From Ferruginibacter albus (lineage in GTDB: Bacteria > Bacteroidota > Bacteroidia > Chitinophagales > Chitinophagaceae): DNA of 64,000 bases. The position numbers and the translations under genes were made by a program. The stretch covers positions 1,886,001 to 1,950,000 of the forward strand of contig NZ_CP083388.1 in the NCBI RefSeq assembly GCF_020042285.1, read 5' to 3'. Shown one piece after another: positions 13,474-64,000 of this stretch. Numbering within the stretch: the stretch's first letter is position 1; each line of letters starts with the position of its first letter. The notes under the pieces were generated by a model. That model made no database searches, was not told the DNA's origin, and worked only from the letters and a program-made list of their open reading frames with translations.

Positions 13474-13684
13474 CCAGCCGGAAGAAAGAACATTGTCGCC
13501 GGATATTTATACAGTGCCTCCGTCAGAATATACAAAGGAGGGTGTAAATATATACAGAGGCTCCGTCAACATGAACATCGCCTCTGTCAACGTTGTAAAC
13601 GCCGTTTGCAACATTAACAATTGCTCCGTCAGAATGTACAGAAGGGTTGTATAAATGGTAAACGACGTTTTACATTTATACAAT
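13474..13684. repeat. 21-bp tandem array, about ten degenerate units
   Basis: Units of 21 bp (one of 22 bp at 13558-13579) follow each other without gaps. The best ones start at 13516, 13558, 13580 and 13622, with a shared core CTCCGTCA (CTCTGTCA at 13582) and then an AT-rich half ending in TACA or TAAAC. Outer units are more worn down. The period is 7 codons, and one forward frame reads heptads such as ASVNVVN and CSVRMYR, but the 22-bp unit breaks the frame and no plausible start or domain is present. It lies between the 5' end of the monooxygenase gene and the trxA terminator. Confidence 0.7.
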
Positions 13685-25272: not shown

Positions 25273-25995
25273 TTAATAATCTTCTTTTTGCCAGCCCCAG
25301 CTACGATATAGGGTTGGATAGGTGCCAGGATAGTTTCCCTCTAATACCCTGCGAAGACTTTTCATTACCTTTTTGATTTGTTCTTTATTGGTGTTTTTAG
25401 CGCCTACCTGTTCGCTTATTTTGCCATCGGTATTGCCGGCGCTGATCACAGAGGCATTATATACCGTATAGATATCGTTCCAAAAATTACCGCCATATTC
25501 TTCGCCGGCAAAGCCCTCTGCAGTGATCGCATCCTTCATTTGCTGTAAAGCTACCAGGCGCTTGTTCCTGTCTCTGGGAAGTTCATATACTTCGCCTCGC
25601 TTTTCAATGCCAAATTGCAGGTAATGTGCAGGGGCATTTTGTTTTTTGAATTTTTTTTGCAGGTATACTTTTACTTCCGATACCGCAGCATCTATTGATG
25701 CGTCCAATTGTGAAAGTGTTTGTGTAAGTATAGGTCTTCCGCCGCCCGTTGCCGCACGTCCCTTAAGCTGGGTTTCATACGAAGCTACCAGTGCACTAAA
25801 ATCTGCCGCATTGGTATAGACCAATGTAATAACAGGATTGTCTGTCCAAGCTTTGGCAACGGCTACTGCTACATGCAGAAAATCACTGTCTTTTTTAGGA
25901 AGCCCGCTTTTTTTGTGTGCTGGAGCGGGGGTGTTAGATGGAGCGCCCGATGCATTGCCGGCATCCGGGGCACGAAGGAATTTTAAGTTATTCAT
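25273..25995 (-). CDS. Conserved-looking hypothetical protein
   Basis: The 240-residue product has a Pro/Ala-rich, likely disordered N-terminus (about residues 1-35) and then a mainly helical body. Visible segments are SQLDASIDAAVSEVKVYL, a RDRNKRLVALQQM helix and an aromatic C-terminus SWGWQKEDY. There is no signal peptide, so it should be cytoplasmic. I do not recognise a family or a catalytic motif. It forms its own unit with a strong terminator. Its 5' side faces the 42-bp repeat region. Confidence 0.6.
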   Translation of the reverse strand: MNNLKFLRAPDAGNASGAPSNTPAPAHKKSGLPKKDSDFLHVAVAVAKAWTDNPVITLVYTNAADFSALVASYETQLKGRAATGGGRPILTQTLSQLDASIDAAVSEVKVYLQKKFKKQNAPAHYLQFGIEKRGEVYELPRDRNKRLVALQQMKDAITAEGFAGEEYGGNFWNDIYTVYNASVISAGNTDGKISEQVGAKNTNKEQIKKVMKSLRRVLEGNYPGTYPTLYRSWGWQKEDY

Positions 25996-26122
25996 GTGTA
26001 AGATTTGTGTTACTAATTAATGACAATAGTAAATTACTAAGAAGCTTACATTCAGTGGTTAAGCTTTAAAACAATGGTGACAATTTGTAGTATGGGCAAT
26101 ATATTTTAACAGAAGATAAGCA

Positions 26123-26350
26123 CCGGAGGAACTCCGGAAGGTGTGTTAGCAGGAAATATATGCAGTGGAGGATCTCCGGAGGATAGGTTAGCATTAAACA
26201 TGTATACCGGAGGACTTCCGGAAGGCAAGTTTGTAAGTACTATGCGTACTGGAGGAACTCGGGGAGACAGGTTTGCAGCAGACATGAATAGTGGAGGAAC
26301 TCCGGAGGGGATGTTTTGAAGAGAAATTGGTAGTGGAGGATGTGCAGGCT
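26123..26350. repeat. 42-bp-period array of palindromic GGAGGA...TCC cores (six units)
   Basis: The core GGAGGA recurs at 26125, 26167, 26209, 26251, 26293 and 26335, exactly 42 bp apart each time. In unit 1 the core is a perfect palindrome (CCGGAG-GAA-CTCCGG), and units 2, 3 and 5 keep a clear stem; the last unit is degraded. The parts between cores also resemble each other (for example AGGTTAGCA or AGGTTTGCA, then ACATG). One forward frame is open from 26110 to a TGA at about 26317 and reads 14-residue units of the form GGxPEGxxAxxMxT, but it has no early ATG and no known domain. Confidence 0.75.
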
Positions 26351-26464
26351 TATATTTGTTTATTGATTTTTAGCAAGGTGAAATTTTTGGGAGTAGAGGA
26401 TGATGGTATATATTTATGTGTTGTATTCAATTAGGCAACCCACATTTTAAAGGTTACAGCAATA
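26351..26464. other. Intergenic sequence before the HEPN-like gene
   Basis: The stretch between the 42-bp array and the next start codon is AT-rich and shows no exact TAnnTTTG box. With the array it forms a 469-bp gap (25996-26464) with no convincing gene. Confidence 0.4.
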
Positions 26465-27220
26465 ATGAAAATAAGATTTGTTTCTGAAGAATTATTAAAA
26501 TGGAACATATCAGTTTCAAGCTCGTCATTTAATAACCATACTTCAATGCTAAGGCCATATGAAATGATTAAACATTCAGAAAGTTTAATTACTCCAAGTT
26601 CTTCAGAATTTAATTTAGCAGATGGTATAGCAAACTTAAAACGAGCAATAAATCATAGGCTTCAAATTATCGAATCAATTTATAAACTTAAAGATATAAA
26701 GTTTAAAAATGCACCTAAAGGAGGATATCTAGAATTATTAGAATGTTATGGACTTGCAAAACCCTACATTATTAAATTGTTAATGGAAATACGTAATAGA
26801 ATTGAGCATGATGACGCTAAACCTCCCAAAAAGGAAAGATGCCAAGAATTACTAGATATCACATGGTATTTTTTAAAATCAACAGACAAATTAGTTTATT
26901 CAATTACTAATTCTGTTTTGATAGAACCTGTAGAGAAGCAGGGATATTTCGGAAAGTATGGATGTGATATGCATGTTGACTTTTCTAAGAAAGTTTTTAA
27001 GATGTCGGGATGGATTCCATCTTCATTTATCACAACAAAAAAAGAAAATAGTTTTTTTCAAATCAATTGTACCGTTATGCATGATGGAGAATTTTGGAGA
27101 AACAAAGATTCAAATATTCATAAAGACAAAACTAAAGAAGATATTTGGATTATTGGAAATCTTAAAGTATCTGAAGAGCAAAAGAAAGAATTTTTAATTA
27201 AAATTCTAACGGCAAATTAA
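26465..27220 (+). CDS. HEPN-like domain protein of unknown function
   Basis: The 251-residue protein has a helical middle region (about residues 55-145) containing MEIRNRIEHDD, that is Arg110-Asn111-x3-His115. This is the RNxxxH (R-x4-6-H) motif of HEPN domains, which are often RNA-cutting or RNA-binding parts of toxin-antitoxin, abortive-infection and CRISPR systems, but also occur in plain structural roles. The C-terminal part (about 150-251) looks beta-rich with aromatic residues and is not recognised. There is no signal peptide. Its place beside REP/RAYT elements and orphan genes suggests an accessory defence-type gene, but no antitoxin partner (MNT nucleotidyltransferase) is seen. The HEPN call rests on one motif plus helix context. 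Confidence 0.55.
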   Translation: MKIRFVSEELLKWNISVSSSSFNNHTSMLRPYEMIKHSESLITPSSSEFNLADGIANLKRAINHRLQIIESIYKLKDIKFKNAPKGGYLELLECYGLAKPYIIKLLMEIRNRIEHDDAKPPKKERCQELLDITWYFLKSTDKLVYSITNSVLIEPVEKQGYFGKYGCDMHVDFSKKVFKMSGWIPSSFITTKKENSFFQINCTVMHDGEFWRNKDSNIHKDKTKEDIWIIGNLKVSEEQKKEFLIKILTAN

Positions 27221-27231
27221 AATTTTCTTCC

Positions 27232-27279
27232 CTTCGCCTTGGTTCGTGTCTACACGAACCATTCGCTAAAGTCCAATCC
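27232..27279. repeat. REP element 1 (upstream arm of the RAYT unit)
   Basis: A palindromic core (TGGTTCGTG - TCTA - CACGAACCA) flanked by CTTCGCC on one side and TTCGC on the other. It is the inverted complement of the copy after the transposase, apart from a few bases at the inner end. Confidence 0.85.
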
Positions 27280-27309: not shown

Positions 27310-27861
27310 ATGCAAACCACCCAACGAAAATCTTTCACAGCAATTGGCAATATATATTTTTGGACAGCAACGATTCACAAATGGTACCCTTTGTTACAAA
27401 ACGATACAGAAAAAAAGCTTATCGCAGATTCGCTTAAAACACTTTCGGATAAAGGTGCTATAACAGTATATGCATTTGTTATCATGCCCAACCATATTCA
27501 TTTAATATGGCAACTGAATGCGCCAAATGGAAAGGAAAGTGCAAAAGGCAGCTTTCTTAAATTCACAGCACATGAATTTAAAAAGATGTTGAAATTATCA
27601 GGAGGCTTGGAGAATTATAAAGTAGACGCAGCCAATAAGGAATACCAGTTTTGGCAAAGAGACTCGTTAGGGATAGAAATATGGAGTCGTGAAGTAGCTA
27701 AACAAAAACTGAATTATATCCATAACAATCCGGTATCAGGTAAATGGCAATTGGCAAAAAATGATATTTCGTATTATTATTCTTCAGCGAAATTTTATGA
27801 AGATGGTATTGATGAATTTGGCTTTCTGAATAATTTGTTTAAAGTATTTGACGGAGATTGA
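27310..27861 (+). CDS. REP-associated tyrosine transposase (RAYT, IS200/IS605-like Y1 family)
   Basis: Single-strand DNA transposase of 183 residues. It has the HUH motif in MPNHIHLIW (His62, His64) and the catalytic Tyr136 in KQKLNYIHNNP, both in the right order and spacing for RAYTs. The SREVAKQKLNYIHNNPV segment is typical of the Bacteroidota group. The protein is complete. It is framed by REP sequences in opposite orientation (27232-27279 and 27857-27901), which are the expected substrates. RAYTs usually stay single-copy and mobilise REPs. A copy of its last 41 codons occurs about 640 bp downstream. Confidence 0.93.
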   Translation: MQTTQRKSFTAIGNIYFWTATIHKWYPLLQNDTEKKLIADSLKTLSDKGAITVYAFVIMPNHIHLIWQLNAPNGKESAKGSFLKFTAHEFKKMLKLSGGLENYKVDAANKEYQFWQRDSLGIEIWSREVAKQKLNYIHNNPVSGKWQLAKNDISYYYSSAKFYEDGIDEFGFLNNLFKVFDGD

Positions 27862-27921
27862 CCATAGCGAATGGTTCGTGTAGACACGAACCAAGGCGAA
27901 GGGACACGAACCAAGGCGAAG
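27857..27921. repeat. REP element 2 plus partial third arm
   Basis: A full REP copy at 27857-27901, overlapping the RAYT stop codon, holds the same GGTTCGTG/CACGAACC hairpin as REP 1 in inverted orientation. Directly after it, 27902-27921 repeats the right half alone (GGACACGAACCAAGGCGAAG). Confidence 0.85.
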
Positions 27922-28336: not shown

Positions 28337-28382
28337 GATTGACCATAGCGAATGGTTCGTGGAGACACGAACCAAGGCGAAG
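28337..28382. repeat. REP element 3
   Basis: Same REP as at 27857 and in the same orientation, with GGAGA in place of GTAGA at the hairpin tip. It is joined directly to the copied RAYT tail, with the bases AGG shared at the junction. Confidence 0.85.
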
Positions 28383-28504
28383 GTAAATGGCAATTGGCAA
28401 AAAATGATATTTCGTATTATTATTCTTCAGCGAAATTTTATGAAGATGGTATTGATGAATTTGGCTTTCTGAATAATTTGTTTAAAGTATTTGACGTAGA
28501 TTGA
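28381..28504 (+). pseudogene. Copied 3' end of the RAYT gene (last 41 codons)
   Basis: Positions 28381-28545 match 27738-27902 at an offset of 643 bp with only two base differences (one in the last codons, turning VFDGD into VFDVD, and one in the REP loop). The coding part keeps the frame and the TGA stop at 28502-28504 but lacks the HUH motif and catalytic tyrosine, so it cannot work. It is enclosed by REP 3 and REP 4. The near identity points to a recent event. Confidence 0.9.
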
Positions 28505-62400: not shown

Positions 62401-64000
62401 TTCTTTCTCAGATGTTACTATTACGTTTAATCAATTACCAACAACAGCAGATGCAGGTCCTGACCAAATTGATGCTGCAACCTGCGGATTAACTACAATA
62501 ACATTAGCAGCGAATACGCCAACAACCGGTACAGGTAAATGGAATATAGTTTCAGGAACCGGTGGTGCGATCAATAACATAAACAATCCGTCATCAACCT
62601 TTAGTGGTGTTGCAGGTAATACCTATACATTAAGATGGACAGTTTCAAACAGTCCATGTACAGCATCAACAGATGATGTAGTAATTACATTCAATCAAAT
62701 TCCATCGGTTAGCAATGCATCAACCAAAAGTATTTGTAATGCTACAAGTACCAATATTGCTTTAACAGCAAGCGTTGCAAGTAATTTCAGTTGGACATTA
62801 GGAACAAATGTTGGTAGTATTACAGGTGCAAGTGCTAGTGTTAGCCCGGCAACTACCATCAATCAAACATTAAATAATTCAAGTAACTCAGGATCAGGTT
62901 CAATACAATATATTGTTACACCAACTTCAACTATAGGTTGTGTAGGTAATCCTTCAACTATAACAGTAACAGTTAATCCAACACCTGCCGTAACTAATAC
63001 AGCTACAGCGGCCACTTGTAGCGGCACGGGTCCAAACATTGGTTTAACAGCAAGTGCACCAAGCTCTTTTGCATGGACGCTCGGAACAAATGTTGGAACT
63101 ATTACCGGTGCAACTGCTACATCAGGTTCAACCATTAATCAAACATTAACCAATCCAAGTAATGCAAATACAGGCTCTATAGAATATAAGGTTACACCAA
63201 CATCTACAACAGGTTCTTGTGCGGGAAGTCCTTATACTATAACGGTTACGGTTAATCCAAAACCTGCTGTTACTACTGCAACTACTGCTTCTACCTGTAG
63301 CGGAACAAGTCCTAACATTGGTTTAACAGCAAGCACACCAAGTTCTTTTGCATGGACTCTCGGAACAAATGTTGGAACTATTACGGGTGCAAGCGCAACA
63401 TCAGGTTCATCCATCAATCAAACATTAACCAATCCAAGTAATTCTTCCAACGGAAGTATTCAATATGTTGTTACACCAACGGCAACAACGGGTTCTTGTG
63501 TAGGTAATACTACCACCATAACAGTAACGGTTAATCCAAAACCTGCCGTAAGTAATGCTGCTACGAAATCGATCTGTAGCGGAACAAGTACTAATATAGG
63601 GTTAACAGCAAGCACAAACAGCTCATTCAGCTGGAGTATAGGAACTATTACAGGAGGTATTACCGGTGCTAGTGCAGGCTCAGGACCTACAGGTACTACA
63701 ATCAACCAGGTATTAACAAACCCAAGCAATTCAACAGCAGGCACGGTACAATATGTTATTACACCAACCTCTAATACAGGTTCCTGCGCAGGCGCTCCTT
63801 ATACCATAACGGTAACGGTTAACCCATTACCAATTGTAACAGTAAGTACTAACTATTGTGTTGGGGGAGGTGTGGTGAAACTGACAGGAAATTCATCAAT
63901 TACACCTGCTACTTATTTATGGACAGACGCAGAAACTACGCAAGCTATTAATGTTGATATTGCAGGAACGTATGCCGTTACCGGTACTGTCACTGCTACA
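59480..64000 (+). CDS. Giant exported repeat protein (3' end outside window), probable T9SS adhesin
   Basis: The frame is open from the ATG at 59480 to the window end (1507 codons, no stop), so the 3' end and any sorting domain are beyond view. The N-terminus is odd: a hydrophobic segment at about residues 24-43, a basic stretch (KLRKLRKQARLAF), then a second hydrophobic segment at about 75-92 ending in SLAQ94, which looks like a signal peptide cleavage site. Next is a glycine-rich domain (about 105-310; CWGAGGAGGG, GAGGSGSTG). Then come CARDB/Ig-like parts (about 315-450) and a set of about six 87-88-residue repeats (each with ATCGLTTVTL and YTLRWTI, from about 61.1 to 62.7 kb). Finally there are about 93-residue Ig-like repeats (SNFSWTLGTNVGSITGAS, from 62.7 kb). 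Likely an outer-surface adhesin moved by T9SS. Confidence 0.85.
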   Translation, partial: MKQVYPLLPFSVLLYTIRHAETSITTVVLSLLCIILFAVALIFNDYKLRKLRKQARLAFIHHKNTHSLSLYKRAGLVIAFLIGGLFVTTVSLAQTTNTYNSSTTWTCPIGVSSITVECWGAGGAGGGATANPSSGGGGGGGSYVKNTSIAVTPGTTYTITVGAGGSGSTGAGQAGGDSWFGSTTTILAKGGNGGNGASSTNQTATGAAAVTTGNVGATSPFNYYGGAGGTGSSNGGSGGGGGSSAGTGSNGNNASGRNGGSAPTGGFAGADGSTSSGSGSNGGVGAGGAGGKASSSTDRSGGDGGDGRIKITYTVLTYKDAWVSMDLTGGGTFSGTTWCAGETRNVKVTVKNTGTATWTDASPDINIGVKWNTNGTSWNDYNVRVDAAGLAPGATATYTLPVTASNNVGGVYTTPLATGTNKLTFDIAYEGVAWFASNAGGVGPSNVVSTSSSITIVTSPTANSGNALTTCSTSGALNITSGASAANQTSVAWTSSGTGTFANASSLTTATYTPSAADIAAGSVMLTLTAKGSACNVSSSKTLTINTPPTAAVAGAAQSGAATCGTTTVTLGANTPIYGSGLWTITSGTGGSFTDATSPTTTFSGIAGSSYALKWTISQTACTSSSDNTTVSFSQNPTAANAGADQTDAATCGLTTVTLAANAPTVGTGQWSIVSGTGGSFADNLNRSTTFTGVAGNTYTLRWTITSAFCGASTDDVDVAFNVPPTTANAGANQTGNATCGLTTVAMNANTPLVGTGQWSIVSGTGGSFDDVNNPVANFSGAAGNSYTLRWTITNGLCKSTSDVNVTFNTGATLADAGADQGATATCGLTTVTLTGNTPSFGTGQWSIVNGTGGSFSNASNPASTFTGVAGNTYTLRWTITSPCNITSDDVDITFSANPTTANAGANQTAAATCGLTTVTLAANTPTVGTGVWSIQSGTGGTVTDVNNPTSTFSGVAGNTYVLRWTISNSPCTSSFSDVTITFNQLPTTADAGPDQIDAATCGLTTITLAANTPTTGTGKWNIVSGTGGAINNINNPSSTFSGVAGNTYTLRWTVSNSPCTASTDDVVITFNQIPSVSNASTKSICNATSTNIALTASVASNFSWTLGTNVGSITGASASVSPATTINQTLNNSSNSGSGSIQYIVTPTSTIGCVGNPSTITVTVNPTPAVTNTATAATCSGTGPNIGLTASAPSSFAWTLGTNVGTITGATATSGSTINQTLTNPSNANTGSIEYKVTPTSTTGSCAGSPYTITVTVNPKPAVTTATTASTCSGTSPNIGLTASTPSSFAWTLGTNVGTITGASATSGSSINQTLTNPSNSSNGSIQYVVTPTATTGSCVGNTTTITVTVNPKPAVSNAATKSICSGTSTNIGLTASTNSSFSWSIGTITGGITGASAGSGPTGTTINQVLTNPSNSTAGTVQYVITPTSNTGSCAGAPYTITVTVNPLPIVTVSTNYCVGGGVVKLTGNSSITPATYLWTDAETTQAINVDIAGTYAVTGTVTAT

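Follow-up and report, generated by a model that had tools for sequence, protein, structure and literature searches.

A tandem array of 42-bp units in the window (the whole stretch of 64,000 nucleotides analyzed here) is non-coding DNA. Nearly all of the intergenic arrays detected with it have a period of 21–22 bp, which is two helical turns, or of 41–42 bp, which is four, and such arrays are linked to two families of orphan proteins, one of which occurs in two phyla. We tentatively read the window array as a non-coding cis element that would form a two-part module together with the adjacent orphan gene.

The 42-bp array and its hairpins

The array of GGAGGA palindromes reported in the earlier note is real. 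Its six cores start at 26125, 26167, 26209, 26251, 26293 and 26335, that is, in exact 42-bp steps; in a multi-lag autocorrelation scan the array scored z = 18 at period 42, and the same scan found no arrays in 10 runs on Markov shuffles of intergenic DNA. A repeat search of the window returned four 84-nt copies with spacings of 42, 42 and 42. Five good units (26122–26331; 79% identity to their own consensus) are flanked on each side by a degenerate unit, and the array went undetected by TRF because its units are too diverged. The array and the gene facing it are composed as follows.

25273..25995, minus strand: orphan gene of family A; mainly helical product of 240 aa; 5' end toward the array, with 127 bp between it and unit 1
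26080..26121, plus strand: degenerate unit 0; second half still unit-like; in-phase TAA
26122..26163, plus strand: unit 1; CCGGAG-GAA-CTCCGG hairpin and spacer
26164..26205, plus strand: unit 2
26206..26247, plus strand: unit 3; CCGGAG-GAC-TTCCGG, with G-T in the stem
26248..26289, plus strand: unit 4
26290..26331, plus strand: unit 5; TGA in frame within the unit
26332..26373, plus strand: degenerate unit 6; holds the sixth GGAGGA core (26335)

The palindromic, hairpin-forming nature of the cores, also claimed earlier, was borne out: the consensus unit of the window array (array 1) and a relative (array 2, below) folds into a pair of perfect hairpins, CTGGAG-GAA-CTCCGG and CATGTTT-GCAGG-AAACATG. 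The window array has two hairpins in each unit, with loops of 3 nt and 5 nt. No Rfam family matched the window array at the gathering score. On the far side of the array lies an orphan ORF of 251 aa (26465–27220) without a Pfam match. Elsewhere in the window, an FAD monooxygenase-like gene starts 7 bp from a second, weaker array of 21-bp period with CTCCGTCAACATGAACATCGC-like units (13500–13660), and TRF reported a 279-bp tandem repeat of 2.7 copies with 79% matches at 62855–63616.

Related arrays and paired changes in the stems

A genome-wide search for the 42-mer, as proposed in the earlier note, yielded two relatives, both in the same genome, which thus holds three related arrays in 3.76 Mb. 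The 42-mer had no copy in any other genome searched, its matches in the genome collection being ascribed to chance, and no convincing copy of the window array was found in phages, plasmids or viral contigs. Absence from related genomes, which had been put forward as a sign of neutral decay, therefore holds for the sequence; the architecture recurs nonetheless.

Array 2 is a diverged five-unit array (G000:C1:3265838-3266046) about 10 bp past a lipoprotein gene. Array 3 (L055/L110; G000:C1:3355194-3355402) lies 5' of a paralogue (59% identity) of the window gene at 25273–25995, and retains the 42-bp step and a 6-bp stem with a 3-nt loop; its stems read GTGAGC/GCTCAC, with ATGAGC/GCTCAT and CTGAGC/GCTCAG in neighboring units. 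Unit identity to the consensus is 79, 75 and 69% in arrays 1, 2 and 3, respectively, and roughly 160 substitutions stand against a single 1-nt length change seen among them. Over 15 units, 30 stem cells were changed on both sides, compared with 12.4 in shuffles (none of 500 shuffles was as high), and 82% of cells were paired, compared with 37–51% in slid controls. Base pairing in the stems is thus backed by paired changes, and pairing is selected in some arrays.

The array-bearing genome also contains two homologous 21-bp arrays at different loci (L095, 14394–14640; L129, 6905–7130), with a unit, GTGGGAATTTGATAGCAA, that is similar to the 3' ends of arrays 2 and 3 (TAAGTGGGAATTTG). A dispersed intergenic repeat (GCCTCTTTTGGTTCGGTATTGCCG.. 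and TTTTGTACTACTGTAAACT) occurs in the flanks of L055 and L088 in the same genome.

An open frame on both strands

One plus-strand frame is indeed open across five units of the window array, as had been pointed out, and reads TGGTPEG..GMF*. However, because the unit is palindromic, a minus-strand frame also runs without stops through the core units (PMFPANMPSGVPPV). The remark that no ATG or known domain is present was also correct: the head of the plus frame has no start codon, and the frame has no Pfam match. That the array is a degenerate gene for a 14-residue repeat is highly improbable. The plus frame is open over five units in both arrays 1 and 2, where synonymous codon differences are more numerous in it than in the remaining two plus frames, but the opposite strand of these arrays is equally open and equally 'synonymous', and array 3 has stops in the very frame that is open in them. 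Unit lengths of 41, 43 and 22 bp exist in the class described below, and the 41- and 43-bp units stand beside homologues of the adjacent gene, so a reading frame could not be kept. Between the two alternatives offered in the earlier note, the degenerate repeat gene is rejected, and the row of protein or RNA hairpin sites gains from the paired changes and from membership in a gene-linked class.

A class of helically phased arrays

The window's genome carries SusC-type and hybrid two-component genes, which point to Bacteroidota. When 876 kb of it was scanned by autocorrelation, about 16 intergenic arrays were detected, or about one per 55 kb sampled, a threshold-based density derived, like the others given here, from sampled stretches of the genome. 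In unbiased stretches there were 10 intergenic arrays, with periods of 21 (five arrays), 22 (two), 41 (one) and 42 bp (two), and ten Markov shuffles gave none. Pooled intergenic autocorrelation peaked at lag 21, and lags 42, 84, 63 and 105 were also among the leading ones. Periods fell at 21 or 42 ± 1 bp in 21 of 22 arrays, or in 19 of 20 when L203 and L208 are left out; these two background arrays of genome G441 were scored at 21 bp and look like 7-bp repeats. Significant dyad symmetry was present in roughly two thirds of the arrays tested and some had none, so what the arrays have in common is helical length and not the hairpin. Most loci have a sequence of their own: the spacing persists, as does the dyad symmetry in part, whereas the sequence turns over from locus to locus.

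The congener G040 has two arrays in 200 kb, and no arrays were found in two genomes of other families (300 kb) or in the congener G050 (160 kb). The minus strands of the G040 21-bp arrays (L142, 11560–11940; L135, 7900–8160) read as heptads (E-I-D-x-V/I-x-x), which is perhaps a chance product of the period.

Locus-specific sequence, the plain decay of some arrays and the 7-bp look of L203 and L208 would all suit neutral minisatellites that arise by slippage and then decay. This reading is disfavored, and we consider it quite unlikely: the periods of 21 of the 22 arrays coincide with 21 and 42 ± 1 bp, the phase survives decay, the stems change in pairs, the linkage to gene families (below) is strong, and 460 kb of three related genomes contained no arrays.

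At least one gene start faces the array in all 15 arrays examined in the window's genome (P = 0.013, assuming that a quarter of intergenic regions are convergent), and units within one locus are up to 97–98% identical, which implies recent amplification. Both observations would fit an array that acts as a promoter-region repeat of variable copy number, tuning or switching the downstream gene without contact with the encoded protein. However, known expression-tuning repeats mostly have short units, and tuning would leave unexplained both the unit length of two or four turns and the carriage of arrays by particular orphan families across phyla; we regard it as unlikely, if less so than neutral decay.

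Linkage to two orphan gene families

Family A comprises the homologues of the window's 240-aa protein and family B those of a 117-aa protein beside another array, both collected across the order. Because the families were chosen for the arrays flanking them in the window's genome, only loci outside this genome were counted as tests. Among these, intergenic arrays were present at 10 of 14 loci of family A and at 10 of 12 of family B, compared with 11 of 279 tiles in a background set of modest size (P about 1e-18). Two further family A loci, L192 and L194, show short arrays by eye. A control within the same genomes (G441 and G323) gave 7 of 9 family loci against 9 of 81 background tiles (P = 4.5e-5). 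Except at L054, each array is found on the 5' side of its family A or B gene, with units of 41–43 bp in family A and of 21 or 42 bp in family B. On the cyanobacterial plasmid pA of Kovacikia minuta, both family B genes found have 5' arrays, of 42 and 21 bp. A third family (L111 and L219; BLASTP 1e-11) stands beside 21/22-bp arrays, at two loci only here, and array 2 and many other arrays adjoin no family A or B gene. Besides L111/L219, the proteins at L095, L132 and L217 are candidates for additional families linked to arrays. Family B was not found in viral contigs.

Array sequences are unrelated between loci, even across seven paralogues in G441. At L193, for instance, the array beside a family A homologue has TCCGTGG-GAA-CCACGGA and CATTT-TGCCC-AAATG, a layout like that of the window array in a different sequence.

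No conserved neighbor genes were found within 1.5 kb of family A or B genes, which are thus solitary. Predicted structures of both families are mainly helical (pLDDT of 85 and 89). Neither family had a significant match to solved structures or a usable match in Pfam, NCBIfam, PHROGs or PADLOC; no known DNA-binding fold was matched, and the two families show no homology to each other.

In G441, sigma-54-like promoters (TGGCACGATTTTTGC) lie between array and gene at four of the seven family A loci (L195, L196, L198 and L194). As a general feature such a promoter was rejected, being convincing mainly in this genome.

A proposed module of array and gene

In the module that we tentatively propose, units of roughly four helical turns (41–43 bp; two turns, 21 bp, in related modules) would be repeated in tandem on the 5' side of a solitary gene that encodes an orphan, mainly helical protein. 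The units would serve as a row of sites that share one face of the DNA and are occupied cooperatively by a protein, for which the product of the neighboring gene is the simplest choice. Binding might then allow the gene to control its own expression, or lead to the assembly of a nucleoprotein structure, in parallel with Rep on iterons and with centromere-binding proteins on upstream centromere repeats. The association of array and gene is observed and the binding is an inference; the bound protein may be the neighbor's own product. The locus-specific sequences, unrelated even among seven paralogues, are hard to fit to a sequence-reading protein unless shape or geometry is read or co-evolution is fast, and since some arrays lack a significant dyad, one binding mode may not suit all.

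It is possible, though we hold this still more loosely than the module itself, that the arrays represent a widespread, undescribed class in Bacteroidota and Cyanobacteriota, in which orphan helical proteins would recognize the geometry of adjacent arrays, be it a length of two or four helical turns or the shape of a hairpin, and not their sequence, so that an array could be rewritten at each locus. Searches of open-access papers turned up neither a known family fitting such a module nor a relevant paper on arrays of this kind. If it exists, both orphan protein families would acquire a physical partner, a large share of what counts as 'junk' among the intergenic repeats of some Bacteroidota would become functional as a class, and a protein-linked array with unit length fixed to helical turns and free sequence would be an unusual principle of recognition.

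A competing reading is that the array is transcribed and that its repeated hairpins are RNA bound by the adjacent helical protein in a ribonucleoprotein. A protein that reads hairpin shape would allow the sequence to change as long as pairing is kept, and the two hairpins per unit in the window array, the like layout in other sequence at L193 and the paired changes in the stems agree with this, as does the existence of RNA systems that combine an array with a helical protein (TIGR-Tas, PMC12045711). However, shuffled sequences fold as well as the arrays at L054, L191, L195 and L176, which accompany these gene families, contiguous variable spacers and an Rfam match are both absent, and an RNA needs no fixed multiples of about 10.5 bp. 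We therefore consider the RNA reading doubtful.

Comparison with known repeat systems

Iterons of plasmid rep genes are direct repeats of about two helical turns, situated on the 5' side of the gene for the protein that binds them, and their sequence is specific to each replicon. The arrays here resemble them in having repeats of about two turns upstream of a gene; however, they are chromosomal, several unrelated ones exist per genome, the units of family A span four turns, and no Rep domain was found in any flanking protein scanned.

The centromere arrays of plasmids (sopC, parC and tubC) contain short inverted repeats within longer iterated units and may sit upstream of the operon encoding their binding protein (PMC5016525). 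Here, in contrast, the gene is solitary, with no ParA/ParM/TubZ motor and no ParB/ParR/TubR gene, and the family A and B proteins matched no centromere-binding protein family.

TIGR-Tas loci have tandem arrays, mostly of 5–15 units, that adjoin the gene of a helical protein; the repeats vary in sequence between loci, and stem-loop arrays exist (PMC12045711). The arrays described here share the adjoining helical-protein gene and the locus-specific repeats, whereas their units are mostly 41–43 or 21 bp against about 36. A Nop domain was absent from the window protein (Pfam, E ≤ 1) and from other flanking proteins (Pfam, E ≤ 0.1), and no Nop chain occurred in the PDB profile matches or among the 50 fold matches listed. 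Variable spacers of about 9 nt were not found either: there was no significant 9-column variable block overall (P < 0.05 in 2 of 24 arrays), and fresh arrays are near-identical over the whole unit length. Membership in TIGR-Tas was rejected on these two grounds, and CRISPR was rejected since no unique spacers separate conserved repeats.

Borg tandem repeats are described as locus-specific, intergenic and coding, and independently arisen (PMC9879509); compared with that account, the arrays here are bacterial, tied to particular orphan genes, and built of two- or four-turn units.

Intergenic palindromic repeats near a RAYT-like gene recall REP/BIME elements, and a RAYT/Y1 transposase-like gene does lie at 27310–27861, 1 kb from the array. 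However, this gene is flanked by a distinct palindrome of its own.

Near 27222–27265, 27861–27921 and 28338–28384: RAYT-associated palindromes, GGTTCGTGT..ACACGAACC

Mobilization as a REP/BIME element by a RAYT was rejected, since the array palindrome is not dispersed genome-wide. A piece of the 3' end of the RAYT-like gene is duplicated from about 28385.
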